Shown here one piece after another: positions 2,600 through 58,984 of a stretch of 59,016 bases of DNA. Source of the DNA: Nostoc sp. NMS4 (GTDB taxonomy: Bacteria > Cyanobacteriota > Cyanobacteriia > Cyanobacteriales > Nostocaceae); NCBI RefSeq assembly GCF_017115095.1, contig NZ_JABXKI010000113.1, positions 1-59,016 of the forward strand, written 5' to 3'. Within the stretch, counting starts at the first letter, position 1. Each line of letters starts with the position of its first letter. The translations under genes were made by a program, and so were the position numbers. The notes beneath the pieces were generated by a model. It was not told where the DNA came from. It did not search any database and saw only the letters and a program-made list of their open reading frames with translations.

Positions 2600-2916
2600 C
2601 GGCTCGACCAACCAACTACATACTTATGCTATTGTGCTTTGCATAAACTAACAATCAATGCAAAACAAAGCTTCACGGAGTCCTTTAGGACTCAGTTAGC
2701 TTTCATCCCCAGCAATCAAGTACGAAATACGCAACTGCGTTGCTGTTTCTCAGGGGTTTTCAGCATTTCCCTTATAAACAAAACATCTCTACAAAACCTA
2801 AAAGTCATTTCCCAGCCAAAATACTGGCGCTAAATTTGCGCTATTTTAGCGTCGTAACTTTGTTATGTTACCTAGCAAAGCTTCATGTACATAAAAAATC
2901 TTGGGATTATGATAAT
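2600..2916. other. Gap between tnpB and cbtB, probable left end of the TnpB element
   Basis: No convincing gene is present. The segment holds small hairpins (GAGTCCTTTAGGACTC near 2680; CGCAACTGCGTTGC near 2732) that may belong to the element's left end. The exact left boundary and target-adjacent motif cannot be fixed without an empty site from a relative. Confidence 0.4.
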
Positions 2917-3108
2917 TTAGTGACATGCAACGCCTAATGTGTGGTGACGTGCTGAGTGTGTTGTGTTATGAGCCGCAGGATAGGTGGAGAACAAAACAGT
3001 CCAGATAACTAAAGAAGATAGCATCATATAAAGCGTTACCTGCACAGGTTTGGATAAGGTAATACCTGCGGTCTTCTGGAATAGGGAAATATGAGAAAAA
3101 GTAGTCAT
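2917..3108 (-). CDS. cbtB: CbtB-type small membrane protein, proposed cobalt transporter subunit
   Basis: The start is decided by a perfect Shine-Dalgarno AGGAGG a few bases before ATG, giving MTTFSHISLFQKT. The protein has about 63 residues. A single hydrophobic helix (LYMMLSSLVIWTVLFSTYP) is followed by a His-rich tail, HNTTHSARHHTLGVACH, which is the signature of CbtB. CbtB is usually encoded with the multi-pass CbtA and is linked to cobalt uptake and B12 synthesis. No CbtA is seen here, although cobQ lies elsewhere in the window. The next gene in this direction is a TnpB element, so an operon partner may have been separated or lost. I looked for a cobalamin riboswitch upstream and did not find its conserved boxes. 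Confidence 0.85.
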   Translation of the reverse strand: MTTFSHISLFQKTAGITLSKPVQVTLYMMLSSLVIWTVLFSTYPAAHNTTHSARHHTLGVACH

Positions 3109-3815
3109 TTTTGACCTCCTAATAATAAATTTGGGTAATTCATCAATCAAAGGGCATAACGCCACTTGATTGCAAAAAGATATACCATCAACTTTGTATT
3201 TGACAAGTGTGTATCAAATGTATTGTGTAATTCGACTTTAGTGAATACTATACTATTCTTTGACATCGACCGATCGCAATGCAGTAATCTACACATAAAG
3301 TCCATACAAATAACAAAAGAATGACATACGGTTTTGAGTGATGGCATTTTCAGCGATGCTAACACGAAGGTAACAGATAAAAATTAAAAATACTCATGTT
3401 GCCAAATATCCAAAATTATTTGCAGAAACGTGATTTATGTTATCTCTAAACCAATTAAATACGCTACAGATTAGGAATAGTTTCTTGCTTGCGTCCATAT
3501 CCAAGGTGTTATTATACCCATTCTTTGTACTTTAAGTACTGCTGAAGCAATCAGCATATCAGGAATATGCATGAAACAGTTAATTTTATCCGAATATTAT
3601 TTATACATAACTAAGCGTATAAATACAGTTAAAACCCAGAAAATTTTGGCGAGAGTTTTTCGGGACTGATTCTTGCTCGCACTAGATTTAACAACTTAAC
3701 TGGCAGTTTAGAAGCATTTAAAAATTATTGACAATAATTATTAATTCCTCTAATATCTAAAAGCAATTGCAAATCTTTTGCAATTCTTTTTGAGCGCTAA
3801 CCGTAATTAAATGTC
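3109..3815. other. Divergent intergenic region between cbtB and the multicopper oxidase
   Basis: No supportable gene. It holds an interrupted dyad ATTTGA-10-TCAAAT at 3198-3219, about 90 bp before cbtB, and a perfect 17 bp dyad near the oxidase gene (listed separately). The remainder is A+T-rich. Confidence 0.5.
3723..3739. promoter_or_regulatory. Perfect 17 bp dyad, candidate metalloregulator (Fur-like) operator
   Basis: AATTATTG-A-CAATAATT is a perfect inverted repeat 77 bp before the oxidase ATG. Fur boxes in cyanobacteria are A+T-rich dyads of similar size, and the downstream genes concern iron. The regulator assignment is inference. Confidence 0.35.
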
Positions 3816-4841
3816 ATGCCCAACAACTTCGCTCTGGGTAACACAAAACCTTTGAGCCGCCGTCAATTACTGAAGCTCGGCCTAGCAGGTGCTGGAGTAA
3901 CTGGTGCAGCTGGACTTTGGCAGATGTTAAATCTACAAAGTAAGTCAATCGTCAAAGTGCCGCCACTCAATATAGAAGCACCAGACGACGCTACTAACCC
4001 AATGAAGATGTTAAGGGATTTTGATTATGGGACGGTAAAGCGAGAAAATGGGCGGACTATCCGGGAATTTCAGTTAACTGCTGGTACTTCCATCATTAAA
4101 CTGAATAGTGCTGTCTCTTACAACATTTGGGATTTAAACGGTCGCATCCCAGGGCCAACGCTACGGGCAAAAGAGGGCGATCGCATCCGGGTACTATTTC
4201 TCAATAATGCGGGACATTCTCACTCTTTACATTTTCATGGCATTCATCCAGCAGAAATGGATGGTGTTCGCCCAATCAGCAATGGTAGCGCCACAATTTA
4301 CGAATTTGATGCTGAACCTTATGGCGTTCACTTATACCACTGCCATATTGAACCAGTCACCCGTCACATTGCCAAGGGACTGTACGGAATGTTTATCATC
4401 GATCCGCCTACTCCCCGTCCCCCGGCTGATGAAATCGTACTAGTGATGGGTGGATATGACGTGAATGATGATAGCCATAACGATTATTACGCCTTCAACG
4501 GTCTGCCCCACTATTACATGCATCATCCCATTGGCATTTACAAAGATCAGTTGATTCGGCTATATGTTCTCAACATCATTGAATACGATCCGGCAGTAAC
4601 ATTTCATCTCCACGCCAACTTCTTTGATGTCTATCGCTATGGCATGACTATGACTCCTAGCGAGAAAGCAGATGTGATTACGATGGGTGTCGCAGAAAGG
4701 CACATCTTAGAATTCGCTTTTCGCTATCCAGGTAAGTATATGTTCCATCCCCATCAGGATGCGATCGCCGAAAACGGTTGCATGGGTCAATTTGAAGTAC
4801 TTGCCCAAAGCAACTCTCAAAATAATGTTAAGCATTCCTGA
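3816..4841 (+). CDS. Tat-exported two-domain multicopper oxidase (putative ferroxidase)
   Basis: The N-terminus LSRRQLLKLGLAGAG is a twin-arginine signal, so the enzyme should fold in the cytoplasm and act in the periplasm. At 341 residues it has two cupredoxin domains rather than three. Domain 1 has H139/H141 (LHFHG) and HCH at 175-177 with H184. Domain 2 has H264/H266 (FHLHA) and H311/H313 (FHPHQD). The type 1 cysteine is present only in domain 1, because domain 2 has FHPHQD where an HCH would be expected. This is the pattern of the 'type C' two-domain oxidases, which assemble the trinuclear site between subunits. Its neighbours (ferritin-like protein, FTR1) make oxidation of Fe(II) before FTR1 uptake the likely job. 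Substrate is inferred from context. Confidence 0.88.
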   Translation: MPNNFALGNTKPLSRRQLLKLGLAGAGVTGAAGLWQMLNLQSKSIVKVPPLNIEAPDDATNPMKMLRDFDYGTVKRENGRTIREFQLTAGTSIIKLNSAVSYNIWDLNGRIPGPTLRAKEGDRIRVLFLNNAGHSHSLHFHGIHPAEMDGVRPISNGSATIYEFDAEPYGVHLYHCHIEPVTRHIAKGLYGMFIIDPPTPRPPADEIVLVMGGYDVNDDSHNDYYAFNGLPHYYMHHPIGIYKDQLIRLYVLNIIEYDPAVTFHLHANFFDVYRYGMTMTPSEKADVITMGVAERHILEFAFRYPGKYMFHPHQDAIAENGCMGQFEVLAQSNSQNNVKHS

Positions 4842-5011
4842 CAATATTATTAGTAATTTGTAATTAATTTATTAAAGTTTTGGCAAGTAGTTGATAAAAA
4901 ATCTCATTATATGCAACAGTAAAATCTATGACAATCTGTCAAACAAACTACTTTCTAGTAGTAGTTTGAAATGTTTCAATTAATACCTTTTAATTTGTGT
5001 GAGGATCAAAA

Positions 5012-6049
5012 ATGATAAAACTTCGTTATATATGTTTAGCAGCAGCAGCAGCCGTAATAGTTACCTTGAGTTCCTGTAGTAATACCCCAACCGCAGAAAA
5101 TCCATCAGCACCAGTTGCTAGCCCTCCAGCTACAGAGGCAGTCAGTAATAACAGCCATAGCGGTCATAGTAGTAAAGAAAAAATTAACATTAACACTGCT
5201 ATTTTGTCAGAACTAGATAAATTTGAAGGAAAGCTAGGTGTTCCGGCATTATCGAACAAAATCCAGGCAAATCGCCCTTATGGTAGCCCAGAAGATTTAG
5301 TTACTAAAAAAGTAATTACTCAAGAGCAGTTTGACCAAATTAAAGACCAGGTTGGTGTTCAAGAAGTTGTACTCACAGGCGAGGCAAAAGATGTTGATTA
5401 TATGTCTAAATTAGGCTTAATGAAAGGGCATCTTTTGGTAGCAAAAGAACTGCTCGATCAAAATCAGCCGAAACAGGCAGAACCTCATATTGGGCATCCA
5501 GTTGAGGAGATTTATGTTGATGTCGAAGATCAATTGAATGAACGCAAAGTCAAAGAATTTAAGACAACATTGGTAAGTTTGCAAGATTTAGTTAAATCTA
5601 ATCCGAAGGATAGCAAAGTTAAAACTAATTTTACTTCTTCAGTGCAAGCAGTTGACGGAGCGATCGCAGCTTTGCCAGAAGCTCAACGTTCAAAACCAGG
5701 ATTTGCGCTACAGGTAATTAACGAACTACTAGATTCAGCCAACTCCGAATATCGCGCTGCGATCGCAAATGGTAAAATAACCGCACCAATTGAGTATCAA
5801 GACTCCCGTGGTTTTGTCGTTTACGCCAATGAATTATACAAAGGAATTTCTAGTCAAGTAGCTCAAGCAGATCCCGAAGCACACAAAGCGATCGATGCTA
5901 GTTTTACTGAACTAATAAAAGTTTGGCCTAGTGCTATTCCACCAGCAAAAGCAGTCAAAACACCTAATGATGTTACCAAGTTGATCAAAACCATTGAGGA
6001 AAACTCTCAAAAAGTGGTTGACAAATCTAATACCCAAGCACAGCGATAA
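5012..6049 (+). CDS. Lipoprotein with helix-hairpin-helix and long helical domain (FTR1-associated)
   Basis: A lipobox (TLSSC) follows a hydrophobic N-terminus, so this is probably a lipid-anchored periplasmic protein. Residues about 50-115 form a ComEA-like helix-hairpin-helix repeat (ININTAILSELDKFEGKLG... EDLVTKKVITQEQFDQI). The rest, to residue 345, is helical and includes HIGHPVEEIYVDVEDQL and EYQDSRGFVVYANELY. It loosely recalls imelysin/EfeO-type domains that accompany FTR1 permeases. I do not see the classic imelysin GxHxxE motif; GHPVEE is the nearest. A His-rich patch (NNSHSGHSS) precedes the HhH region. ATG follows GAGGATCAAAA, a good ribosome-binding site. It probably binds iron or helps hand it to the permease, which is inferred from location. 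Confidence 0.75.
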   Translation: MIKLRYICLAAAAAVIVTLSSCSNTPTAENPSAPVASPPATEAVSNNSHSGHSSKEKININTAILSELDKFEGKLGVPALSNKIQANRPYGSPEDLVTKKVITQEQFDQIKDQVGVQEVVLTGEAKDVDYMSKLGLMKGHLLVAKELLDQNQPKQAEPHIGHPVEEIYVDVEDQLNERKVKEFKTTLVSLQDLVKSNPKDSKVKTNFTSSVQAVDGAIAALPEAQRSKPGFALQVINELLDSANSEYRAAIANGKITAPIEYQDSRGFVVYANELYKGISSQVAQADPEAHKAIDASFTELIKVWPSAIPPAKAVKTPNDVTKLIKTIEENSQKVVDKSNTQAQR

Positions 6050-6166
6050 AACTTTGATTTAATGGGAAGTATAGGTTAAGAAGTTTAAAATGAGGAAATC
6101 ATTAGGAATTACGAATTACGAACTCCTAACTAATTACACTCCCTTCGTTACTTTAACTAACAACTG

Positions 6167-6601
6167 ATGCAAGAACTTGACCATAAAAAGACTATTGACC
6201 TGCTGAACGCCATCATGGAATTTGAACTAGCAGGGGTAGTGCGCTACACACATTATTCTTTGATGGTAACTGGCCCTAACCGTATTCCAATTGTGGCTTT
6301 TTTCAAAGCACAGGCAAGTGAATCTTTACTTCATGCCGAACAAGTAGGAGAAATTCTCACCGGTTTAGATGGGCATCCCTCCCTGAAAATTGCCCCAATG
6401 GAAGAAACCTACCAGCATAAAGTCAAGGATATCTTGGAAGAAAGCTTATCCCATGAAAAAAAGGCATTGGAACTGTATAAAAAATTGCTTGATACTGTCA
6501 CCAATGCCAGCATTTATCTTGAAGAATTCGCTCGCGGTATGATTGGACAAGAAGAGATGCATAATCTTGAACTGAAAAAAATGCTACGCGATTTTAGTTA
6601 A
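6167..6601 (+). CDS. Bacterioferritin-family ferritin-like protein
   Basis: This 144-residue four-helix protein has the expected diiron ligands: E18/E20 in IMEFELAGVVRY, E52 and H56 in SESLLHAEQ, E91/E92 with H96 in EESLSHEKK, and E129/E130 with H132 in GQEEMHNLE. It resembles bacterioferritin-like proteins and may oxidise or buffer iron in the cytoplasm. No haem-ligand methionine can be assigned with confidence. It sits between the iron lipoprotein and FTR1 on the same strand, with gaps of 117 and 127 bases, so the four genes may be co-transcribed, though STRR DNA fills the second gap. Confidence 0.85.
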   Translation: MQELDHKKTIDLLNAIMEFELAGVVRYTHYSLMVTGPNRIPIVAFFKAQASESLLHAEQVGEILTGLDGHPSLKIAPMEETYQHKVKDILEESLSHEKKALELYKKLLDTVTNASIYLEEFARGMIGQEEMHNLELKKMLRDFS

Positions 6602-6603
6602 TA

Positions 6604-6727
6604 GTTATTAGTCATTAGTCATTAGTCATTGGTCATTAGTCAAAAAGAAATTCAAAGGACAGATGACAAAGGACAAAGGACAAAGGACGAAGGACTAATG
6701 ACTAATGATAAAAGATAAAGGACAAAA
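6604..6727. repeat. STRR array (ATTAGTC / GACAAAG heptamers) ahead of FTR1
   Basis: Heptamers of the type AGTCATT/GGTCATT give way to GACAAAG-type units and end two bases before the FTR1 ATG. Such short tandem repeats are typical of heterocystous cyanobacteria. The last unit supplies AAGGACAAAAG directly before the start codon. Confidence 0.85.
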
Positions 6728-6728
6728 G

Positions 6729-7697
6729 ATGAATTTTAGTACTGCTCTACCTACTTTTGTAATCACACTCCGAGAAGGAGTAGAAGCTGCCCTTGTTGTT
6801 GGTATTGTGCTGGCTTTGCTGAAAAAAGCTAAACAATCCCGACTCAACTCTTGGGTATATGCTGGTGTCGGTGTTGGCATTGTCGTCAGTGCCTTAATAG
6901 GTGTGCTATTCAGTTGGGTAATTCAAATATTAGGAGCCGCAAATCCGCAATACACCACCGTAGTTGAGCCAGCGTTGGAGGGTGTGTTTAGTGTATTAGC
7001 GATCGCAATGCTCAGTTGGATGCTAATCTGGATGACTAAACAAGCCAGATTCATGAAAGCTACAGTTGAGGGAGCAGTAACAGAAGCGCTGACACAAAAC
7101 TCAAATTCTGGCTGGGGTGTTTTTAGCTTAATTTTAATTGCCGTTGTCCGCGAAGGCTTTGAAACTGTTCTGTTTGTTGCAGCTAATTTTCAACAGGGAT
7201 TAATGCCAGCATTGGGCGCTATTGGTGGTTTAGTAGCCGCATCTGCCATTGGAGTGCTGTTATTTAAATGGGGTGTCAACATTAACATCCGCCAATTTTT
7301 CCAGGTAATGGGCGTTTTATTAGTGTTGATTGTCGCTGGATTAGTAGTTTCAGGTTTGAAACATTTTGACGAAGCCGTGGCTAACCTTGCCCTTAGCAGT
7401 CGTGCTACAGAAGGCCTTTGTTTCTATTACGAACGTTTTACAAAAATCCACTCCTGTATTTTGGGGCCAATGGTTTCCAATACTTCCACAATCTTGCCTG
7501 ACGAACAGTTTCCTGGCATTATTCTCAAATCTTTATTTGGTTATAGAGACAATCTCTATCTTGTGCAAGCAGTAGGATATGTGACATTTTTACTCACCGT
7601 TGGAGGACTGTATTTCCGCAGCCTTGGAGGTGCTTCTCCTAAAGCTAAAAAGAATATTCCCTTTCCTCAAAAACCGATTAGTTCTGCAAAAGATTAA
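6729..7697 (+). CDS. FTR1-family high-affinity iron permease
   Basis: FTR1/EfeU permeases carry ferric iron through the inner membrane using paired REXXE motifs. Both are present: REGVE at residues 15-19 in the first helix and REGFE near residue 141. Multiple hydrophobic helices span the 322-residue protein, which ends with GGLYFRSLGG and a short charged tail. I start at MNFSTALPTF, the family-like N-terminus. An ATG eight codons upstream lies inside the STRR array and encodes only repeat-derived residues. A multicopper oxidase, an iron lipoprotein and a ferritin-like protein precede it, recalling the Fet3-Ftr1 and EfeUOB pairings. Confidence 0.92.
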   Translation: MNFSTALPTFVITLREGVEAALVVGIVLALLKKAKQSRLNSWVYAGVGVGIVVSALIGVLFSWVIQILGAANPQYTTVVEPALEGVFSVLAIAMLSWMLIWMTKQARFMKATVEGAVTEALTQNSNSGWGVFSLILIAVVREGFETVLFVAANFQQGLMPALGAIGGLVAASAIGVLLFKWGVNINIRQFFQVMGVLLVLIVAGLVVSGLKHFDEAVANLALSSRATEGLCFYYERFTKIHSCILGPMVSNTSTILPDEQFPGIILKSLFGYRDNLYLVQAVGYVTFLLTVGGLYFRSLGGASPKAKKNIPFPQKPISSAKD

Positions 7698-27641: not shown

Positions 27642-28127
27642 TTAGCTTTCTTCCTGATGTGTAAATCCAACCATCTGAGCAACTAATTCCAAATGTTTCG
27701 ACTTTGAGCGAGTTGGTTCATAGATTCCGTTTTCCCATTCACTAACTGTTGCTTGACGCACACCCAGTTGTGTTGCAAATTCTGCCTGTGTTAAACCCAT
27801 TTGGAGACGTAATGCCTTGATTGATTTGCTATTCCACACCACTTTTCCATCTACAAGCTGCACTTGTTCGCTAGTAGTAAATTGGCAAAAAGTAACGCAT
27901 TGCTTATCAAAATCAACATCTCCAACGCGATATCCTGCTTCTATCCAGGACAAAGCCTGTAATGCGCCTTTGCTGCGATTACTCCACCACGCCCGTTTAC
28001 TTTTTGCTGAATTGGGTAAAGTATCATTTATTAAAGTCTCAATTTCAGCAAATGATAAAGTTATTTCATTTTGATCACCGCCACGTAAAAATTCAAGGAG
28101 TGGCTGGTACTTGCTGCCCTCCTTCAT
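27642..28127 (-). CDS. DUF7662-like domain fused to an XRE-type helix-turn-helix
   Basis: Residues 1-90 match a DUF7662-type domain (YQPLLEFLRGG...ITLSFAEIETLINDTLPNSA...AWWSNRSKG). Residues about 105-150 are an XRE helix-turn-helix (LRLQMGLTQAEFATQLGVRQATVSEWENG). The gene overlaps the specificity-subunit gene by four bases, so it is the third gene of the methylase operon. By context it may control expression of the system or act with it at DNA, both inferred. Confidence 0.75.
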   Translation of the reverse strand: MKEGSKYQPLLEFLRGGDQNEITLSFAEIETLINDTLPNSAKSKRAWWSNRSKGALQALSWIEAGYRVGDVDFDKQCVTFCQFTTSEQVQLVDGKVVWNSKSIKALRLQMGLTQAEFATQLGVRQATVSEWENGIYEPTRSKSKHLELVAQMVGFTHQEES

Positions 28128-29500
28128 GTCACATCTTCCTCTCCCAATATCATGCGCTCAACACGGGCTTTTGCTTCATTTACTAAGTTTTCAGCCTTAA
28201 TGCGTAGACTTTTAGCTTTATTGCAGCGTTGGGTAACTTCCGTAGCTATTTCGTTTTGAACTTCTTTATCAGGAACAGGAATAAGCGTTTCTTGAATATC
28301 ACTTTCTAAGATAGCTGGATATGATGAACCCGCAGATCGTCGTTTAAATTGTTCAAGGGTAGTGCTTAATCGTAAAGCCAAGTGTAGATATGCAGAACTT
28401 ACTTTTTTTGTTGGATGAATAATAGTAAATCCTGTAGAACAAATAAACCCTTCCATTTCATTTTGAATCAGTGCAATTGCTCCTCTAGTAGGACGTACTG
28501 TAGATACAATAATATCTCCAGTATGAACAACTTGCCTTGCACGACTAGGCGCACTTGCTTCAGTAATTTCTATAGCTCTCTCAATTTCTCCTAACTGAAT
28601 ATCAATACTGGAGATATCAATATACTGAAATATAGCTTCTGCTTCATTTGACAGCTTTCGTATTCTTTTAGGAAATTTAGCAACAGCCTTCACGGGTAAA
28701 ACTTGATTTATATATGGGTCAAATTTATGAAAGCCCATATTGAAATCTACATCAAACCGAGATTTATATATTTCTGCTATTGGCCTTAGAAAACGCCTTT
28801 TCTCTTCAACATCCTCAAGAGTTATCCCTAATCTACTAAACACATAACTATCAATTGTTTGATATAATCTTTCTGCTTCAGATAACTTATTCTGTCGTTT
28901 AGCATAAGCATTTTGCATTATTTGAGCAATGCGGTCTTGAATAGGTCTAGGAGGAAGAACAATTTGCACATTTTGAAGTCCATTAACGTTAATGTGTGCA
29001 TATATACTTCCGATTGAATATTCATTAAGTAACTGTTTTCCAAAGTTTGAATTTAGGTATGCTGCTAGATAGTAGGGATTGACCTTATTAGCGTGAACTT
29101 TTACACGAGCAACATGGGCACTAAGATTTGCAGGTTTTTCAGATGTATAAACTAATGCAGTTCCTAACCTTCCTGTGATAGTAACTAGCAAATCTTCTGG
29201 CTGTACTTGTGACCGTTTAAAATGCTCATGTTCTGCTTGAGTTATCATTTTTTTGTTAGATAAATCTAAGCCAAATTCAGTTATATTCCTAACTGCTAAC
29301 ACTGTTATGCCATCATCTACATAATGACGAGTAGAATGTAAACCATCAGAAATTTCTGCAACTAATTTTCCTAGTTTTAGAATTTGAAATCTAGTATTTT
29401 TTAAGTATTCTTCAGTTTGAAGAGATAATTCCGAATGAAATGAATAAGCCCACTTTTTTTTATTTCTTAATCGACTAATTGCAATGGTAGTATCTTCCAT
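28124..29500 (-). CDS. HsdS-like specificity subunit with two target-recognition domains
   Basis: The 458 residues hold two repeats, each with a variable region followed by a conserved helix. Repeat 1 contains LVAEISDGLHSTRHYV and PPRPIQDRIAQIMQNAYAKRQNKLSEAERL. Repeat 2 contains YIDISSIDIQLGEIE, GDIIVSTVRPTRGAIAL and PDKEVQNEIATEVTQRCNKAKSLRIKAENL. This is the usual architecture of a bipartite-target specificity subunit. It starts four bases after the methylase stop codon, so the genes are coupled. Confidence 0.88.
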   Translation of the reverse strand: MEDTTIAISRLRNKKKWAYSFHSELSLQTEEYLKNTRFQILKLGKLVAEISDGLHSTRHYVDDGITVLAVRNITEFGLDLSNKKMITQAEHEHFKRSQVQPEDLLVTITGRLGTALVYTSEKPANLSAHVARVKVHANKVNPYYLAAYLNSNFGKQLLNEYSIGSIYAHINVNGLQNVQIVLPPRPIQDRIAQIMQNAYAKRQNKLSEAERLYQTIDSYVFSRLGITLEDVEEKRRFLRPIAEIYKSRFDVDFNMGFHKFDPYINQVLPVKAVAKFPKRIRKLSNEAEAIFQYIDISSIDIQLGEIERAIEITEASAPSRARQVVHTGDIIVSTVRPTRGAIALIQNEMEGFICSTGFTIIHPTKKVSSAYLHLALRLSTTLEQFKRRSAGSSYPAILESDIQETLIPVPDKEVQNEIATEVTQRCNKAKSLRIKAENLVNEAKARVERMILGEEDVT

Positions 29501-29503
29501 TTA

Positions 29504-31546
29504 TTAAATACACCATCCTAATTTTTCATGGAAGTTATTTATAGTTGATTCTAATTCAGAGGGCAATGAAGCCTCTTCTTCTTTTACTTTTGAACGCCCA
29601 GAAGCGTCATAACCAATATCATCAATTCTTGCCATATAAACTTTATAGTCTTCTTCCTCTACAACTATCTGATTAATTTCAATTTGTTCTCCTATAGCAA
29701 GAGCAATAGCTCGTTTTTCTAAAACTAAGATACTAGATTTAACACCAGCACCATAAGGTGCAAATGTTTCTTGCGGTAAACTAAGAACTGCTTTCAATCT
29801 AGCCCAGCGTAAAATCCAGTCGCGTACATCTTGAGTTGAACTATTCGCTAATAACCCATCAGGTAAAACAATAGCTAACTTCCCGTTTGGTGCAAGATAT
29901 TCCAAGCAACGATTTAAAAAAGCTACTTCTTGAAGAATACTTTTAACAACCTTGCCCTTTTTTTTTGTCACCCCATCCCGTCCAGCAAAGTCCTTTAAAA
30001 CATTTTCATTTGTTAATTTAGAACCAAATGGAGGATTAGTTAAAATCATCGTTAACCCTCCCAGATAAAACCCTGGACGTTCTGGGAGTCCCTCTGTAAT
30101 TCCTCCTGTAATGCTACCCAATCGCTCCAGCGAATCCATTACCTTTAAATCGGCATATTGTGCGCCATTCATTAAAGTATTAACTCGCGCTATATGCATC
30201 ACATTTCGAGAATATTCAGCACCAAAGAAATGATTATCTCGAAACTTGATAAACTCTTCCGTTGGTTCTTCAAGATTAATCCCTTCAGTATTACCATCAT
30301 TATTTGCTATTGCTTTTGCATACTCCTGCTTACGCACATAATCCAAAACGTGCGTCAACATCCGCGCTGAACCGCAAGCAGGATCACCAACATAATCATT
30401 TACTGTAGGTTGCAAAATTCCCACCATTAAATTAATTACTGGTGTAGGTGTGAAATATTGCCCCAAATCATCACGGAAAGTCTTACTCAAAAAATCCTCA
30501 AACACCCCACCTTTCACATCTGCTGAAGATTTTCGCAAACTCCAAGGCTGTAAACGCTTGACGATTTCCATTGTGGTGTGAGGCTTGAATTGCAGCACAT
30601 CACCCTCATTAAAAGCCAACCGTGCCGAAAGGTCGTCGCCAAACTTTTTTGCTAAAGTCTCTCGTTCCCACTGCTTCGCTTTTTCAAAAGTGTCTCTTAC
30701 TTGAACTAATAAACGTTCTGGGTCAGTTTCATTACTAACACTAAATACATAAGCCCGTGATTCTCCTGTTTGCTTTACCAAGTCAATTGTTGCCTGTTCG
30801 TCATACCACTTAGCAAACAAGAATTTAACCATTGCATCAACGGCTTCTTGTGGCTGCAAACCCTCGTTATCTCTCAGAATAGAGTGACAACCAGAACGCG
30901 TATCTCCCAAAACCTCCCGAAACTTATCACGGGTTAGTGGCGTTAGTCCGGTTTTAATCCCATCTGGTTGACTGGGATTAAGGATTACAGTGTAGTCACT
31001 GTGCTTTGCGGCTTCACCGGCGCTTTCATACTTCTCTAAATCACCAATTATTTCTAACTTGCGTGGGTAGTCAAGGTCACGACGATAAATTACTGTATGT
31101 TTACCACTGGTTAAAATAGCATAACGGGCAGATGGTGAAGCACTCATGTAAGCATTGAGTCGGTTAAGATGATCAACCCAACCATCCGCCTCAGTCCCGC
31201 CAAATTTTTTACTTGGTTCCATAGCCTCCACCATAATAAAGGCTACATCCAAATTACCTACAGAATCAGCATAACGGTCATCGTAAACTACAAGGTCTAC
31301 CCGCCCAAGATAGCGTCGCCCGCCTTGATAAGTTCCCTCGGCAAAATCTGAATTTAGTTCTAGTTCCATCGCCTCTAGTGGAACACCGTACTCTTCTACT
31401 AAAATCTGAAGCGCCCACATCGTCACAGGGTCTTCTGCTGGACGCACATAAGAACCATCAGCTTTAAATAACTTTTGTAGATTTCGATAGTTCTGTGGTA
31501 TGTTAGCGGGATTTTGGTAAGGATTAGTGAAATCGGAGAAAGGCAT
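29504..31546 (-). CDS. N6-adenine DNA methylase with an N-terminal HSDR_N-like domain
   Basis: The C-terminal half (from about residue 330) is an HsdM-type methylase: GQYFTPTPVINLMV, motif I DPACGSARML, motif IV LTNPPFGSKL. The N-terminal 200 residues resemble the nuclease-type domain of type I R proteins (VRPAEDPVTMWALQILVEEYGVP...RVDLVVYDD...AFIMVEAMEPSKK...YAILTSG). In that domain the expected ExK is E-A-M, so nuclease activity is doubtful. Fused R-M proteins with a separate S subunit are known in type IIB/IIG systems such as BcgI. No separate hsdR gene is nearby, so the operon may only methylate, or may restrict by another route. Confidence 0.87.
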   Translation of the reverse strand: MPFSDFTNPYQNPANIPQNYRNLQKLFKADGSYVRPAEDPVTMWALQILVEEYGVPLEAMELELNSDFAEGTYQGGRRYLGRVDLVVYDDRYADSVGNLDVAFIMVEAMEPSKKFGGTEADGWVDHLNRLNAYMSASPSARYAILTSGKHTVIYRRDLDYPRKLEIIGDLEKYESAGEAAKHSDYTVILNPSQPDGIKTGLTPLTRDKFREVLGDTRSGCHSILRDNEGLQPQEAVDAMVKFLFAKWYDEQATIDLVKQTGESRAYVFSVSNETDPERLLVQVRDTFEKAKQWERETLAKKFGDDLSARLAFNEGDVLQFKPHTTMEIVKRLQPWSLRKSSADVKGGVFEDFLSKTFRDDLGQYFTPTPVINLMVGILQPTVNDYVGDPACGSARMLTHVLDYVRKQEYAKAIANNDGNTEGINLEEPTEEFIKFRDNHFFGAEYSRNVMHIARVNTLMNGAQYADLKVMDSLERLGSITGGITEGLPERPGFYLGGLTMILTNPPFGSKLTNENVLKDFAGRDGVTKKKGKVVKSILQEVAFLNRCLEYLAPNGKLAIVLPDGLLANSSTQDVRDWILRWARLKAVLSLPQETFAPYGAGVKSSILVLEKRAIALAIGEQIEINQIVVEEEDYKVYMARIDDIGYDASGRSKVKEEEASLPSELESTINNFHEKLGWCI

Positions 31547-51322: not shown

Positions 51323-54304
51323 TTATCTTTTTACTGCACGGTCTCTCACCCATTGTTTTAACAGAGGAATTTCAAAATCATATCCTCCATTGATTTTGTG
51401 TAAAATATGATAACGCAACAAGCGGGTTAATACCTTTTCAGCAATTTCAGAATTTATAGGTGATAAAATATCTGTCTTGGCAACTTGTAATAATAATTCT
51501 TGACCAATTACCATTTCTTCTGGTGTAGTTCCTGTAAATTCTGTCCAAATATTTGTAAAATAAGGTTGACCGGAAATAAATGCGTCATTAATAGAAGCTT
51601 GCAAGAGTTCAGCAGTAATAAAATCAGTATGGTTAAAGTTAGCTTGATTCACCATTGATGCGCCCAATAATTGTAGGCAGTAAGGGTGACAACTGGTAAG
51701 CTTTAATACTTCTTTTACAATGCCTGGAGCGTAACGCAGTGCAAAATCTGGATCTGGCTCAAGGAGTAATTCCTTGGCTTCTTTAGGTTCAAGATAAAGC
51801 ATTTCTATTGGGACAACGCTGATAAAATAGCTACTCCAATTCGGACCTAATTCCTCTAAAGTTTGCACCCCAGAAAAGAGAATATTGAGTTGTTCATAAT
51901 GTTGAATTAAGTGGCGTAGTTGGTCAAATAAACGTAAAGTTATCTGTCCGTTTTGGATGGCGGTACCGATTTTTTCAAATTCATCAAGGTTGAGAAGGAT
52001 GCGCCGTTCTCCGATTTTGGCAAGTGCTTCATCCAACCAATCTTCTAAGGTGGTATAGGGACTAGCTTGAAAATCGGTGCGTTTAGGAATGTTTGGTAAT
52101 TGAAAGTGTTTACTTTTGCAGTCTTTATGAATTCTATAGACTAAGCCATAGCAAAAGTCAGATTCGCTGGTGGTAATGGCGGAACTTTGCATATCCACAA
52201 ATACGGGGAGGATATCACTGTTAAGCAGGCGGTGAAAGTTCCGCAAAAAGGAAGTTTTACCACAGCGACGGGGGCCATGTATCACAAGGGTAGGTCGGTC
52301 ACGGTCGAAAACTCGACGGAGAATTTGATTGGCAAATGCCTGACGACCTTTAAACAAGTTTTTTTGGTCAGGTCGCACCGGATTTCCATATTGGAACGGG
52401 TTGATTAGTTCGCCTTGAGAGAGTTTGCTTTGTTCATTTTGTTCTAATTCAATAACGCTTTGCCAATGTTCCAGTACGGGTGTCCAGCGTTTGATGGCTT
52501 CGTTTTTAAGTCCGAGAGAGGGTAATTGGCGTTTTAATTGATCAACATTTTCATTGATTCGTTTTAATCCTCGTTCTCGTAGGGGTATATTTTGATTTTC
52601 AAGTGCAGATTGAATATCTTGAATAATAGTTTGTAAGCGAGGAAGAAGGATAGAAAGTTCAGGTTTAACCTTTGGTAAAGGTGTTTCTGGAGTGGGGGTG
52701 TAGTTATCAAAATCGAGATTATAGAAGGGGGAAATCAGGAAGGGTAATATGGGATGGTCTGAGTTGGCAGTAAAGATTAGTTCTGGAATAGTTTGAATTT
52801 GCTTGAGTTGGTCGGCAACAATTTGTGGTAAAGCATTTTGTAGGGTTATTTGAAATCCTGGTAAGGAAAAAGTTTGGATATATTGAAAGATTTTTAAAGC
52901 TTGTTGAGGTCTTTTACGAAATTCAGAAACAAGAAGTTGAGCATGATTAGGTAAAGGTATCCATAGGAGTTCGCTAGTGTAAGGAGGTAATTGAAAAAGT
53001 ATTTTTGCTGTTTGGGGACGTAACCGCCTAATTGTTGAATCTGAAAATCTGAAAAGTTTTAGTAAAAAATTAGAGGATGTATAATAACCACCTAAAAAGA
53101 TAAAGCTATAATCAGGAAATATTCTGTAATAGCTGACTAAGGTTACAGGGATAATTAATGCTGAAAGCCATCCTAAATTTTGGGCAGAAAGAGCTATTAA
53201 AATCACTGTAGTGATGATAAAAACTCTGTTATCTTTTGCTGGTGCAAGAGCAAAAGCGATTAAACCTACAACAACCGAAAACCAAGTAAGCGATAAAAAA
53301 GTAGCAACTTGCGCCACTTTGAACGCCACTCCAAACGCCACAACGAACGCCACTCCGAACGCCACGACTCGCGCCACTCCAAACGCCACTCCGAACGCTA
53401 CTCCGAACGCCACTCCTAACGCTACTTCAAACACCATTTGGAATCGGTCTATGAACGGCTGGTCTCTTGGCATGACGGCCGCCACTCCGAAGGCCACGAC
53501 TAACGCCACAACGAATGCCACTCCGAACTCAACTTCGACCGCCATGAATCCTGAATCATCAATATTTTCTATACTTTCTCTTGCTGAAAATAGAAGAAAG
53601 CCTGTTATTCCACTTACTAACAACAGAAACAACCAGTTTTGAGTTGCTAACGACGCTCCTAACATCGCTCCTAACATCATACTGATTGTTCCTCCCACCA
53701 CCATCACATTGCGAGGAAGGTAAAGAAGCTTGTCTAACAGTTGCAATATTAACCAAACAATTAATGATATAAATACTGCAAAAACTATAAAAGCTATCCC
53801 TAAAACTATCCCTTCTTGAGCTAAAGGAGGTAAAACTTTAAAGGACTTTAACCATACAAGGATTTGCGTAGATACCTGATAGTGATAGTGATGAGTTGAC
53901 GATTGAGAATTCGTTTCAATTATAGCGACATGATCCCATGATTCATCAGGAACGCCTAATACAACTACCAACCACAACAAAGGGATAACTAGTCCTAAAG
54001 GTAAAAATAAAACTCCTGTCGTATAAGCAATTAACATTGCACAAGGTAACTGCAACCAATCTAATAATTGATTACGTTCAATCAGTCTTAAAATCAGAGG
54101 AATATGAAAAATAAATAATAATAATAAATACTGACTAAGAAATCGTAAGTTTCCGAAAACTAAAATATCAATAAAACTTGTGTCTCGTCTGCCTCCATCT
54201 TTTTTTTCTTTATATAACCATTCATTCATTCTTTGTTGAAGCCTTGAAGGACAAAACATTGCCCACCAAAATAGTTCCCAAGTTTCTCGCAAAAATAACA
54301 ACAT
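51323..54304 (-). CDS. Multi-pass membrane protein fused to a STAND/AAA-type ATPase
   Basis: The N-terminal 400 residues hold about eight or more hydrophobic segments. Between roughly residues 255 and 335 these are built from tandem FGVA/VVAF tetrapeptides. After a cytosolic linker comes NPFQYGNPVRPD, then a P-loop ATPase with Walker A GPRRCGKTSFL (near residue 678) and Walker B RILLNLDEFEKI (near 770). A winged-helix-like tail ends the 993-residue protein. The NPFxYGxPV entry and ATPase are paralogous to the upstream protease-ATPase. In such systems the ATPase is a switch and the membrane part a possible effector or pore. That function is inference. Confidence 0.85.
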   Translation of the reverse strand: MLLFLRETWELFWWAMFCPSRLQQRMNEWLYKEKKDGGRRDTSFIDILVFGNLRFLSQYLLLLFIFHIPLILRLIERNQLLDWLQLPCAMLIAYTTGVLFLPLGLVIPLLWLVVVLGVPDESWDHVAIIETNSQSSTHHYHYQVSTQILVWLKSFKVLPPLAQEGIVLGIAFIVFAVFISLIVWLILQLLDKLLYLPRNVMVVGGTISMMLGAMLGASLATQNWLFLLLVSGITGFLLFSARESIENIDDSGFMAVEVEFGVAFVVALVVAFGVAAVMPRDQPFIDRFQMVFEVALGVAFGVAFGVAFGVARVVAFGVAFVVAFGVAFKVAQVATFLSLTWFSVVVGLIAFALAPAKDNRVFIITTVILIALSAQNLGWLSALIIPVTLVSYYRIFPDYSFIFLGGYYTSSNFLLKLFRFSDSTIRRLRPQTAKILFQLPPYTSELLWIPLPNHAQLLVSEFRKRPQQALKIFQYIQTFSLPGFQITLQNALPQIVADQLKQIQTIPELIFTANSDHPILPFLISPFYNLDFDNYTPTPETPLPKVKPELSILLPRLQTIIQDIQSALENQNIPLRERGLKRINENVDQLKRQLPSLGLKNEAIKRWTPVLEHWQSVIELEQNEQSKLSQGELINPFQYGNPVRPDQKNLFKGRQAFANQILRRVFDRDRPTLVIHGPRRCGKTSFLRNFHRLLNSDILPVFVDMQSSAITTSESDFCYGLVYRIHKDCKSKHFQLPNIPKRTDFQASPYTTLEDWLDEALAKIGERRILLNLDEFEKIGTAIQNGQITLRLFDQLRHLIQHYEQLNILFSGVQTLEELGPNWSSYFISVVPIEMLYLEPKEAKELLLEPDPDFALRYAPGIVKEVLKLTSCHPYCLQLLGASMVNQANFNHTDFITAELLQASINDAFISGQPYFTNIWTEFTGTTPEEMVIGQELLLQVAKTDILSPINSEIAEKVLTRLLRYHILHKINGGYDFEIPLLKQWVRDRAVKR
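53316..53545 (-). repeat. 12-base tandem repeats encoding FGVA tetrapeptides
   Basis: On the minus strand GGAGTGGCGTTC-type dodecamers repeat with small variations. They are interrupted around 53430-53478 by a segment coding for a short charged loop (PRDQPFIDRFQ). They encode an unusually regular hydrophobic region. Confidence 0.85.
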
Positions 54305-54341
54305 TTTTTATATTTAATGTCTGATTTTTTGACTGATTACT

Positions 54342-55928
54342 TTATCTTTGACCTTTCACAAACTCTGCAAAAACACTGCTAAATAAACCCCTATTCTTCC
54401 GTAATAACCCATGACGCTGAAGCATATCTACAATTGCCCGATCGCTAATAGGTAAATTACCCCTTCCCAACTCATAACGCAATGCTAAACGTTCAACTTC
54501 CGTTAAATCTTTCCAAAGTTCTTCAAAACGGGGCTTTGCTTGAAAATTAAACTCATTTTTAGCTATTTCTTGATTACTATTTTGCCACAACATCGCCCCC
54601 GCCATCTGCACATAATAGGGCAACCCTCCTGCTAACTCATCCACCCATTGTAATACCGCAGAATTAGGCGAAAATCTTTTCTGGATGATGCTTTGCCAAG
54701 CTTCCTCCTCTAATGCCCCTAAAATAGTCATACTGAAAATATTGGCAAATGGAGAACCCAGACTCAAAGTTTCGTAAACTTCATTAAGAGGGCGTTTACT
54801 GGCAATTACCATTGTTAATAAACCCGCAGAAGCCTTAGAACGCCAATCTTCTCCCCAATCCTGAAACAATTCCAATCTATCTTTTTTACTAGCAATGGCT
54901 TCAAACTCATCCAATAAAATAATTAAACGATACCTTTCATTTACTAAATCCTGTAAGCCATCTTCTACTGCAAAGCCATCTTCATTATCTTCCTTTGACC
55001 AAGGAAAATTCCCTGTTAGTTTGTGAATCCCTCGCCTTAAGCCTTCAATAATCCCCTCTGGAGTATGAAACTTCCCATTCGTTAAATCTAAAAAAACAAC
55101 TAAAGGCTTTTGTTCTGGCGAACAAAATTCGCTGATTCTTTCTCTGATATATCGCAATAGAGAGGTTTTTCCATTGCGCCGCAAGCCTACCAAATTGACA
55201 CATTGAGGACTAATCGCACCAATGCGGTTTTTAATCTCTAATATCTCTCTTCTCCGTCCGTAAAAACGTTGTGGAGGAACAGGAAGACCATATTCAAATG
55301 GATTATCACCTTTGGGCTTTGGCTGATGAAATTGTTGATTAAGTAAAGCAATATCGGGAAAGTGTTGCACAATAACTTGAGCCGAAACTGCCCGCCCACC
55401 TAAATCGTTACCCTCATCACGGGAAAGATGCACAATTCCACAAACTTTACCTGTTAGTAAATTTAGCAAAGGCGATCCACTAAACCCTGAGATAACTTGC
55501 CCTTGCTTTAACTTATAGAGAATAATATCCTCTTTAATATGCTGTTTAAAACTTATTCCTTCATATTTAAAACTTGCCGAATCTCCCTGCGAATAATCAA
55601 CTTCGCTATTCTTGGGATAACCGAAAATATATAAATCATCGTTGACATTGGGTTCTGTGTTATCCAATTCAACACAGGGATGATGCAAACAATCCTCGTA
55701 CAGTTGTAAAAGGGCTAAATCAAGGGGATATTTGCATAATTGCGTAACTTTAGCGGTGTAATTCTGGTTTCCTGCTTTCCAGAATACTTGTACAGGGTTA
55801 TCTTTTGCAGATTCGACCACATGGGCGCAGGTGAGAATCCAATTCGGTGCAACAAAAAAACCTGTTCCCTGACTACTGGCAACATTTAAACGCACTGTAC
55901 AGCGTTGTAAATTGTCTTCGTTACCCAT
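54342..55928 (-). CDS. Trypsin-like serine protease fused to a STAND/AAA-type ATPase
   Basis: The N-terminal domain is a chymotrypsin-fold protease with the whole triad: His36 in ILTCAHVV, Asp70 in YPLDLALL, Ser150 in GFSGSPLL. No signal peptide is present, so it should act in the cytoplasm. After NPFEYGLPVPPQ the ATPase domain has Walker A GLRRNGKTSLL (248-258) and Walker B RLIILLDEFEAI (334-345). The tail (RAIVDMLQRHGLLRKN) looks like a winged helix. The pairing suggests an ATPase switch that unleashes a protease, as proposed for NTP-dependent conflict systems. It lies 37 bases before the membrane ATPase gene. Confidence 0.9.
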   Translation of the reverse strand: MGNEDNLQRCTVRLNVASSQGTGFFVAPNWILTCAHVVESAKDNPVQVFWKAGNQNYTAKVTQLCKYPLDLALLQLYEDCLHHPCVELDNTEPNVNDDLYIFGYPKNSEVDYSQGDSASFKYEGISFKQHIKEDIILYKLKQGQVISGFSGSPLLNLLTGKVCGIVHLSRDEGNDLGGRAVSAQVIVQHFPDIALLNQQFHQPKPKGDNPFEYGLPVPPQRFYGRRREILEIKNRIGAISPQCVNLVGLRRNGKTSLLRYIRERISEFCSPEQKPLVVFLDLTNGKFHTPEGIIEGLRRGIHKLTGNFPWSKEDNEDGFAVEDGLQDLVNERYRLIILLDEFEAIASKKDRLELFQDWGEDWRSKASAGLLTMVIASKRPLNEVYETLSLGSPFANIFSMTILGALEEEAWQSIIQKRFSPNSAVLQWVDELAGGLPYYVQMAGAMLWQNSNQEIAKNEFNFQAKPRFEELWKDLTEVERLALRYELGRGNLPISDRAIVDMLQRHGLLRKNRGLFSSVFAEFVKGQR

Positions 55929-55988
55929 TAATTGCTCTCACCTAGCATCTTTGTAAAAAGATTATCACAACTACAAAGCAATCAACTG

Positions 55989-56300
55989 TTATTTATTCCA
56001 TTCCATTGTAATTTCCAGGTTAGCTGTGCCTGTTCCTTTCACAATTAAAGCGGTTAGTTGTCCTGACTCAACTCCAATTTGTAAACCTAGTTTGACACTA
56101 AATTTATCTGGTTTGACTGTCTCGCTAATATCTTTTAATGTACCTGCGACATCTTCAGCAATGGATTTAATAATTTCTGTCGCTTGTTTAAAGACTCTGG
56201 TTTCAGCAGAAACAGGTTGTTCTCCTATAGGCGTAACCTCTACTTTAATTATTTTGCCGTCAGAAAGTTCAAAGGAAATAATTTTGGTTTTATCTGCCAT
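55989..56300 (-). CDS. CU044_2847-type trypsin-co-occurring domain protein
   Basis: 103 residues in two parts: a beta hairpin (IISFELSDGKIIKVEVTP), a central helix (RVFKQATEIIKSIAEDVAGTL), then KPDKFSVKLGLQIGVESGQLTALIVKGTGTANLEITMEW. The last segment is the hallmark of the CU044_2847/trypsin-co-occurring family, small proteins encoded beside trypsin-like proteases. It is the first gene of this operon and may be the sensor, adaptor or substrate of the protease. ATG is preceded by AAAAGAAAG. Confidence 0.83.
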   Translation of the reverse strand: MADKTKIISFELSDGKIIKVEVTPIGEQPVSAETRVFKQATEIIKSIAEDVAGTLKDISETVKPDKFSVKLGLQIGVESGQLTALIVKGTGTANLEITMEWNK

Positions 56301-57221: not shown

Positions 57222-57695
57222 TTATGCATCTTGAGGATTTAACTCTCTTAACTCGTCGGTGGTATAAGTACCAATGGGAGTCCAAACTAGATAGGGAAGG
57301 AGTAGCAACGCCGCCATTAGAGACATTGGCAAAACACAAATTGCTAAAATAACGCCTAAAATCAAACCCACTAGTCCAAGAATTTCTCCAGCTTTGAGAC
57401 TGCGAAACCTGAGCATTATAGGTATGTAGGCGACGGTGATAATTTCTACCAAAAGGTACAAAGCCATTAGCAGCCAAGTAATTAGGCTTCCGGGGTTTTT
57501 TTGCCAAACAATAGTCGCTGAAGCTGCACCACTGATAAAAATCACAGTCCAGATGAACGGAATTAGAGGTTCAAAAACTAGCCAGCGAGGGCGACTTAAA
57601 TGTGCAAACCATTTAACATCACGCGGCGTGATTAAGAAACTCCCAAGGGCGATGGAGAAAGTTACAGCCCCAATTATTATCCAAGATGGAATCAT
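57222..57695 (-). CDS. TspO/MBR-like membrane protein (copy 1)
   Basis: Five hydrophobic helices and the TspO-like phrase RPRWLVFEPLIPFIWTVIFI. The product ends with LLLPYLVWTPIGTYTTDELRELNPQDA, split here by the last helix. I start at ATG giving MIPSWIIIG; an in-frame ATG 13 codons earlier gives an unrelated hydrophilic prefix. TspO proteins bind tetrapyrroles and respond to stress. The neighbouring copy is a close paralogue. Confidence 0.85.
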   Translation of the reverse strand: MIPSWIIIGAVTFSIALGSFLITPRDVKWFAHLSRPRWLVFEPLIPFIWTVIFISGAASATIVWQKNPGSLITWLLMALYLLVEIITVAYIPIMLRFRSLKAGEILGLVGLILGVILAICVLPMSLMAALLLLPYLVWTPIGTYTTDELRELNPQDA

Positions 57696-57785
57696 AATGC
57701 ACTCAAGTTTTGTGTATTTTGTCAAGTCATACACTGCAAGTTTGACAATTTAGGCTAGATGTTTAATCATTCTCTGGGGCGATTC

Positions 57786-58259
57786 TTAGGCATCTTGAGG
57801 ATTGAGACGGATCATCTGCCAAGTGGTATAAGTACCAATGGGACTCCAGAGTAAATAAGGAACTAGTAATAGTGCTGCCCAACCAGAAAAACCTAAGACT
57901 GCAAGTATCAATAAAGCACAAATGACTAAACCCGTGCCACCGAGAATTGTGCCTACTTTCAGACTGCGAAGCTTAAACATTACAGGCGTATAGGCAATGG
58001 TAACAATTTCTAATAGCAGATATAAACCCATGATTAACCAAGTTGAGGTGCTTCCTGGGTCTTTTTCCCAGACAATATAAGCTGACCAAGCACCGCAAAT
58101 AAATATTACAGTCCAAATAATGGGAATTGCGCCCTCAAAAGTTAGCCATCTTGGTCGTTGTAAACGCTTGAACCATTGGCGATCGCTAGGCGTAATCACG
58201 TTCGCGGCTAAAGCAACCAAGAAAGCCACACCCCCAATCACCATCCAAGATTTAATCAT
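57786..58259 (-). CDS. TspO/MBR-like membrane protein (copy 2)
   Basis: It has the same length, helices and phrases as copy 1: QRPRWLTFEGAIPIIWTVIF, AYTPVMFKLRSLKVG, LLWSPIGTYTTWQMIRLNPQDA. It lies 90 bases upstream on the same strand, so the pair is a tandem duplication. The two have diverged by roughly half their residues, so the event is old. Confidence 0.87.
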   Translation of the reverse strand: MIKSWMVIGGVAFLVALAANVITPSDRQWFKRLQRPRWLTFEGAIPIIWTVIFICGAWSAYIVWEKDPGSTSTWLIMGLYLLLEIVTIAYTPVMFKLRSLKVGTILGGTGLVICALLILAVLGFSGWAALLLVPYLLWSPIGTYTTWQMIRLNPQDA

Positions 58260-58585: not shown

Positions 58586-58984
58586 ATGAATCATCAAAAA
58601 CAACTTACTGCAATGCTTATTCCATTCTACTTAGGGGAGCAACAAGATTCAGAAGGTCGAACAATTCAAGAAATGTGGGCTTGGGATTTTGAAGAATTAG
58701 AGTGCGTCCACAATTACATTCAATGGTTGTTCCCTTTGCCTGAGCAAAGTGCATTCAATCATAATGCACCCATCGTTAATGAGGAAGTAATTCAAGCATT
58801 TCAAGACAACCCACACCTACGTCAAAATTTGCTGCGTTCCTTCACCGTTATGCTGAAATTTTATGGGTTGCAACGCCACGAGAGTAATGATGGAAAAATA
58901 CTGGTTAGCCAATCAGAAGACTATCCGAATCGTAAACGCGAATGGGTGCATCCCAGTTTTTATTATTTCAAAACAAATAAATAA
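58586..58984 (+). CDS. Opioid growth factor receptor (OGFr) conserved-domain protein
   Basis: The segment WDFEELECVHNYIQWLFPLPEQSAFNHNAPIV is the core of the OGFr conserved region, followed by a helical FQDNPHLRQNLLRSFTVMLKFYGL. The bacterial members are small stand-alone proteins of unknown function; the name comes from the animal homologue. The 132-residue frame is complete, with a stop inside the window. Confidence 0.85.
   Translation: MNHQKQLTAMLIPFYLGEQQDSEGRTIQEMWAWDFEELECVHNYIQWLFPLPEQSAFNHNAPIVNEEVIQAFQDNPHLRQNLLRSFTVMLKFYGLQRHESNDGKILVSQSEDYPNRKREWVHPSFYYFKTNK

Follow-up and report, generated by a model that had tools for sequence, protein, structure and literature searches.

Conserved pairing of two STAND-type ATPases in a Trypco1-protease gene cluster of Nostoc sp. 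NMS4: a candidate membrane-linked defence switch

The stretch of DNA analysed here (the window; 59,016 nucleotides of contig NZ_JABXKI010000113.1 from the cyanobacterium Nostoc sp. NMS4) carries on its minus strand three genes encoding a 103-residue Trypco1 protein (gene A, 55989-56300), a 528-residue protein that joins a trypsin-like protease to a STAND-type ATPase (gene B, 54342-55928), and a 993-residue protein with a predicted membrane module and a STAND-type ATPase of its own (gene C, 51323-54304). Comparison of sequences indicates that the ATPase pair of B and C is the conserved core of the system. With middling confidence we read the cluster as a protease-armed version of this two-ATPase pair, acting as a membrane-linked defence switch. 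An earlier note on the window had described the genes as a head-to-tail cluster, and the open reading frames lie exactly as it claimed, in the order A, B, C with gaps of 60 and 37 bases.

Three sets of comparisons bear on the linkage of B and C. In a scan of genome contigs B was followed by C in 13 of 13 loci, with A ahead in 12; the exception (L020) has a TIR domain, not a trypsin domain. Since this order was kept down to 42-50% identity, in Pseudanabaena (L018), the arrangement is not a product of chance. The B-type ATPase was sought by profile (E <= 1e-30) at three taxonomic levels, with matches in 5 of 386 genomes for the phylum, 15 of 388 for the order and 17 of 217 for the family; the sets overlap, and together they give 26 genomes. 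The trypsin domain is whole in 21 of these, and all 21 have C downstream on the same strand, at spacings from a 4-base overlap to a 2248-base gap (C is split into two open reading frames in L056, and its frame is short in L178). The earlier note had asked whether relatives might never link the membrane ATPase to the protease-ATPase; the opposite was found. Four further genomes carry a damaged B, and in the last (L130) B is of a helix-turn-helix (HTH)-like type, not trypsin, and stops at the contig end. As to the state of the damaged loci, L177 (6659-7795) has mostly lost the protease and keeps a whole C, L057 (7626-9268) and L129 (4878-8784; no trypsin domain seen) hold B and C in pieces, and in L181 (4392-5499) the end of B is followed by only the last 20 residues of C.

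A profile search with C (E <= 1e-10) matched 44 of 386 cyanobacterial genomes, and 53 of the 58 loci were fetched. Upstream of an intact C, on the same strand and within 1.2 kb, an intact B-type ATPase gene was present in 39 of the 53. Both ATPases occur in one chain in two loci (L138 and L154), in six others one of the two, B or C, is damaged or short next to its partner (L057, L097, L104, L108, L151, L152), and one (L162) is another STAND type. No B was seen in five, comprising three C pieces of 302-360 residues, L156, which starts 960 bases from a contig end, and L148. The fused chain of L138 (5223-8585) reads TIR-TIR-ATPase-ATPase over 1120 residues, and that of L154 (6498-8879) holds both ATPases in 793 residues; L162 (2769-8714) encodes adjoining STAND proteins, one of which combines TPRs with a periplasmic-binding-protein-like domain. 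All such plain counts are inflated by the presence of closely related Nostoc strains, and some loci of the separate searches belong to the same genomes.

When 118 ATPase domains, taken from 57 pairs plus the two fusions, were placed on a tree, B and C formed separate clades without error and with support of 1.0, each fused chain placing one domain in either clade, and mean identity between the B and C ATPases was 20%. The two distance matrices correlated with r 0.97, a value that 0 of 2000 permutations reached. Neither this tree nor the matrix comparison includes L177, L178 or L162, and for L175 the C was found by way of a different anchor. The paralogy of the two ATPases, and the linkage of Trypco1, protease-ATPase and membrane-ATPase, which the earlier note had proposed, are thus supported; its view that pairing with a membrane ATPase is unusual is not, the pairing being instead a conserved core, shared by 34 pairs that lack a trypsin domain. 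It is very improbable that the Trypco1-protease-ATPase and the membrane ATPase of the window are unrelated neighbouring modules without joint function. Other genes do lie between B and C in L126, L127 and L131 (one genus, gaps of 1.3-2.2 kb), but such a reading is at odds with the 21 of 21 linkage, the fusions and the clean clades. Two other loci deserve mention for their contents: in Crocosphaera (L016, 8886-9757) B and C are separated by toxin-antitoxin-like genes of the opposite strand (HepT-like and nucleotidyltransferase), and in L050 (5858-8893) a 1011-residue protein with TLC transporter-like and HEAT matches follows a distant A-B-C cluster.

The N-terminal part of B changes among relatives. 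The best 120 of 719 matches to a B profile were mostly trypsin-ATPases, followed by proteins with TIR, CHAT, caspase, HTH or unassigned N-termini, and the non-trypsin ATPases among these listed matches were 51-68% identical to B. Among the best 120 of 398 matches in a wider-family search, with N-termini read from Pfam columns and a scan of 10, we found EAD4, EAD7, EAD8, EAD10, TIR, trypsin, caspase, CHAT, a phosphorylase domain, NNH2 and a cyclase. The type of N-terminus must have changed at least 35 times across a tree of 92 B ATPases (shuffled mean 58), and the trypsin state alone 15 times, 10 of these being forced by well-supported branches. These numbers come from a quick tree with long branches, whose rows were hand-picked from about 240 listed matches plus the loci (P0156 in shortened form) and labelled from Pfam columns, with HTH assigned by eye for L089, L091, L094, L102 and L136. 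One case is that of P0172 (trypsin) and P0221 (TIR), whose ATPases are 94.7% identical over 321 residues; the break falls at the domain border, and no similarity could be aligned before it. Compared as sequences, the two show a recent exchange of the output domain.

C was seen beside B with trypsin, TIR (L020), EAD4 (L134), HTH-like and short N-termini, CHAT and caspase neighbourhoods lying outside the comparison. In L020 a TIR-bearing B, with an ATPase 55% identical to that of the window, is followed by C; this locus (2286-6779) comes from a metagenome assembly, lacks Trypco1, and has the TIR part in two frames and C split. Since C persists while B takes on other outputs, it probably serves as a constant sensor or anchor at the membrane rather than as a second effector. 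The earlier note suggested two effectors, which we now consider less likely than one exchangeable effector, the N-terminus of B, with C as its constant membrane partner. The version of the two-effector idea closest to that note is a gasdermin-like one, in which the protease of B would cleave C and the freed membrane module would form pores and kill the cell. In its favour, the hydrophobic module of C is large and bears GxxxG-type repeats. HamMAB and Avs1 are known cases in which proteolysis activates an adjoining pro-effector, in the accessible text of PMC12799240, and bacterial gasdermins are likewise activated by proteolysis, as told in the corresponding part of PMC13236601. We nevertheless regard this alternative as rather unlikely, because C is retained in the 34 pairs without a trypsin domain, also where TIR, EAD4 or HTH-like N-termini precede the ATPase of B, and has no gasdermin match in Pfam. 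The same holds for A and B, and no fold search was made with the membrane module of C by itself.

Gene A was identified as CU044_2847, a trypsin-co-occurring protein, in the earlier note, and both NCBIfam (NF041216) and Pfam (Trypco1, PF19493; E 2.1e-17, 63.9 bits against a cut-off of 24.6) agree, with B adjoining. The protein is conserved in an alignment of relatives. Among 60 B-C pairs, Trypco1 accompanied all 25 trypsin-type B genes (one of them, L177, truncated) and none of the 35 others, when sought up to 2.5 kb upstream of B or less where the contig ends. In two further loci, L051 and L052, it stands before a trypsin domain on other proteins, and C is absent from the fetched stretch; these proteins have weak TPR matches, and NB-ARC and TPRs, respectively. 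In L051 (7681-10751) the protein with the trypsin domain is followed by a 197-residue open reading frame without a Pfam match, and in L052 (8076-11768) likewise by one of 197 residues. Since Trypco1 tracks the trypsin domain, A is more likely a partner of the protease than a shared adaptor, and its distribution makes it most likely a keeper or guide of the protease. That it should be an adaptor common to both ATPases, as the earlier note had it, is not supported by this distribution and must be considered unlikely.

In B the trypsin-like domain, the exchangeable part, covers residues 5-181 (55386-55916, minus strand) with the triad His36-Asp70-Ser150, and the ATPase residues 209-528 (54345-55304, minus strand), ending in what by eye resembles a winged helix. 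Matches to Trypsin_2 (PF13365, E 9.8e-20) and AAA_22 (E 3.4e-6) bear out the proposed fusion of protease and ATPase. The triad residues are invariant in 12 of 12 aligned B sequences, and of 25 trypsin-type B proteins 23 show the triad pattern, the exceptions being the truncated L177 and L128, which fails the script's Asp pattern. PADLOC matched the protease to LmuA (E 1.3e-20) and Avs1b (E 4.3e-12). The nearest loci, from Nostoc, have B proteins 90-93% identical to that of the window. A sequence search of the PDB returned HtrA/Spl-type proteases for B, one chance-level match for A and none for C.

The ATPase of B has Walker A Lys254, Walker B Asp340-Glu341, a conserved Arg363 and a GLP motif; that of C (residues 631-993, 51326-52414, minus strand) has Walker A Lys683, Walker B Asp774-Glu775 and Arg797. 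The motifs which the earlier note found common to both are present as an entry motif (NPFEYGLPV in B, NPFQYGNPV in C) and a P-loop (GLRRNGKTSLLR in B, GPRRCGKTSFLR in C), and its Walker B pattern LLxLDEFE applies to C (LLNLDEFE) and fits B (IILLDEFE) inexactly. In the wider family the catalytic Glu is retained in 59 of 59 C and 40 of 59 B, and the Walker A Lys is present in 59 of 59, a count partly built in by the script, which located the ATPases via their GK motif. An Orc/NLR-like fold, P-loop, Walker B, GxP motif and winged helix place these ATPases among STAND proteins. For C, Pfam gave AAA_22 (E 3.6e-8) and a weak nSTAND1 match under its cut-off, and PADLOC and NCBIfam matches were weak. 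A fold search matched the ATPase model of C to STAND/Orc structures, among them Avs3, Avs5, CED-4 and plant resistosomes; the listed matches cover residues 631-993, a few of them starting at 570. The protein terminates with this ATPase and winged helix at residue 993.

Ahead of the ATPase, C has predicted transmembrane helices in residues 1-250 (53555-54304, minus strand), of which 1-116 are conserved and the remainder variable, and a predicted helical region in residues 339-630 (52415-53290, minus strand). The N-terminal part has 9 hydrophobic windows, and about a dozen helices precede residue 410 in the structure model. Between the transmembrane and helical regions lie tandem arrays of 12-bp units (53312-53426 and 53480-53544, span 53309-53544, minus strand) that code for a hydrophobic (GVAF)n of period 4, hypervariable among relatives, with 11 tetrads in residues 285-332 (53309-53452, minus strand). 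The unit is G-V-A-x. A plus-strand open reading frame at 53211-53642 was rejected as a gene, being a mirror of the array. By script, C has at least 12 tetrads in 36 of 60 pairs (11 in the window), with an identity peak at lag 4 in most arrays; the composition at the V and A positions is partly built in by the script's search pattern. In 36 comparisons between nine sequences of the Nostoc group the median identities were 82% for C residues 1-116, 85% for the linker, 93% for the C ATPase and 92% for B; the middle part of C, which holds the array, reached 52% and had 20% gaps. The Val codon is mostly uniform within a genome and differs between some (mostly GTG; GTT in L124, GTA in L106), as expected from slippage in each lineage. 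The C model renders the array as a long helix, at low confidence (predicted local distance difference test score, pLDDT, about 40-50). The array is not essential, since some C proteins, for example those of L103, L139, L143 and L173, carry scarcely any of it or none. We suggest tentatively, as a doubtful extension of our reading, that C may be a membrane-embedded NLR-like receptor whose (GVAx)n coding minisatellite, lengthening, shortening and drifting by 12-bp slippage, renews a sensing surface, while its constant ATPase signals to a partner ATPase bearing any of a dozen interchangeable warheads.

A possible course of events can be drawn from the protein families and from the precedents in the accessible parts of PMC12799240 and PMC13236601. 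In the resting cell C would hold B inactive at the membrane. A membrane disturbance or phage component, sensed via the repeat-bearing module of C, would lead to nucleotide exchange, and C and B might then assemble into a mixed ATPase ring in which crowding of the B N-termini would switch on the protease. Trypco1 would guard or direct the activated enzyme, and cleavage of a cell or phage protein would stop phage spread, probably costing the cell. As far as the available text of these papers goes, trypsin domains on defence enzymes act via cleavage (PMC12799240), and in LypABC the trypsin domain is required for lysis, which needs both peptidase and ATPase residues (PMC13236601).

Several observations weigh against our reading. 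The fused chains of L138 and L154 have no hydrophobic windows, so the membrane module is dispensable in some versions, and L148 has a whole C without B. The agreement of the B and C matrices is expected from shared species descent too; descent alone can give such agreement, but it cannot give fusions. The association of Trypco1 with the trypsin domain amounts to only 4 independent contrasts on the tree (sign test p 0.125), the Trypco1 trait being entered equal to the trypsin trait because both sets are identical, and the AlphaFold model of A (pLDDT 46) was left unused. HTH-like, DNA-binding N-termini in some wide-family partners (a Pfam match in L139, others by eye) would fit regulation. There is no clear defence island, since a Pfam scan of the window flanks showed metabolic genes. 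PADLOC, run on 10 neighbours from six other loci, matched PD-T4-6 (L013), DpdF (L016), a Cas12f-like protein (L125) and TPR models (L018, L013); in our view the proteins are a kinase, a RecQ-like helicase and a TnpB-like protein, besides TPRs, and on these 10 neighbours the idea of a defence island was rejected.

The last two of these points are those on which a different function would draw, namely that the pair is a regulator of stress or membrane state and not a defence system, sensing envelope stress while the N-terminus of B responds, by transcription where it is HTH-like and here by regulated proteolysis. In seven Nostoc loci, moreover, the cluster is flanked by open reading frames matching those of the window in length (234-235 and 489-494 residues; only lengths were compared), as a settled locus might show. 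Such a function seems to us improbable all the same. The distribution is patchy (the B clade in 17 of 217 family genomes, C-type loci in 44 of 386), broken copies exist (L057, L129, L177, L181), and exchange among TIR, caspase, trypsin and EAD domains is typical of conflict systems according to the portions of PMC7159879 and PMC8195603 available to us. Searches of viral contigs gave 0 relatives of B or C, and a plasmid search gave 0 matches to C and two records for B, via the protease part.

The window flanks themselves hold a decarboxylase, DUF4926, an M15 peptidase, TspO and OGFr_N (Pfam scan), the M15 peptidase gene lying directly upstream of A on the opposite strand. Elsewhere in the window there are Type I restriction-modification methylase and specificity genes (28124-31546), a TspO/MBR protein (57786-58259) with an open reading frame alongside that looks similar by eye (57222-57734), and a bacterial open reading frame with an OGFr_N domain (opioid growth factor receptor region; 58586-58984, E 8.5e-22).

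Four described systems resemble the cluster; each is compared on the accessible part of its source. The two-gene nSTAND2 system (Kaur et al. 2021, PMC8195603) is like B-C in having adjacent genes, each with a STAND core and conserved arginine, a variable effector on one partner and a predicted mixed ring. One nSTAND2 partner has eroded NTP motifs, with GT4 or HEPN, whereas the motifs of B and C are intact and A, B and C have no GT4 or HEPN Pfam match; C has a membrane module, and the outputs are trypsin, TIR, CHAT, caspase and EADs. The nSTAND2 profile matched 6 of 16 B-type proteins at E <= 0.01 (best E 2.7e-6), did not match B or C of the window, and was not listed for 12 C proteins scanned. 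In CARD-NLR/LypABC (PMC13236601) a trypsin-ATPase protein likewise works with a second Orc-like ATPase. Unlike that system, B lacks a CARD, for which there is no room because the trypsin domain begins at about residue 5; C has no TPR array after its ATPase, and no gasdermin or nuclease gene was recognised. The LypA ATPase is without the Walker residues that B has, and C has its membrane module.

The Trypco1-trypsin VMAP ternary systems (Kaur et al. 2020, PMC7159879; PMC10907252) share a Trypco1 gene that adjoins one in which a trypsin-like peptidase is joined to an NTPase-system protein, which supports the likeness to described protease-NTPase conflict systems proposed in the earlier note. Among the scanned window neighbours there was no MoxR or vWA match, and the window ATPases are a STAND pair. 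The protease versions of Avs1, HamMAB and Lamassu (PMC12799240) resemble B in their N-terminal trypsin-like domain; unlike Avs1 and HamMAB, the cluster has no MBL nuclease gene upstream, with Trypco1 in its place, and B is partnered by a membrane ATPase. The literature already describes the pairing of Trypco1 with trypsin, STAND proteins whose N-termini can be exchanged, and a STAND system of two genes. Neither the B-C pair nor the array is described in the accessible text of PMC7159879 and PMC8195603, the array string was not found in the literature searched, where two papers mention Trypco, and the same literature (mostly open-access text without preprints or figures) did not yield the combination of the pair, the array module and the exchange of a Trypco1-protease cassette.

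If our reading is correct, these genes would represent a form of two-component STAND immunity in which membrane sensing and killing reside on separate, co-inherited ATPases. The killing domain would be swapped like a cartridge, and its Trypco1 keeper swapped with it. Natural matched pairs, in which the same ATPase carries either a trypsin or a TIR domain, offer material for studying how STAND ATPases switch on unrelated effectors, and the fast change of the repeat array makes it a testable candidate for the sensor.

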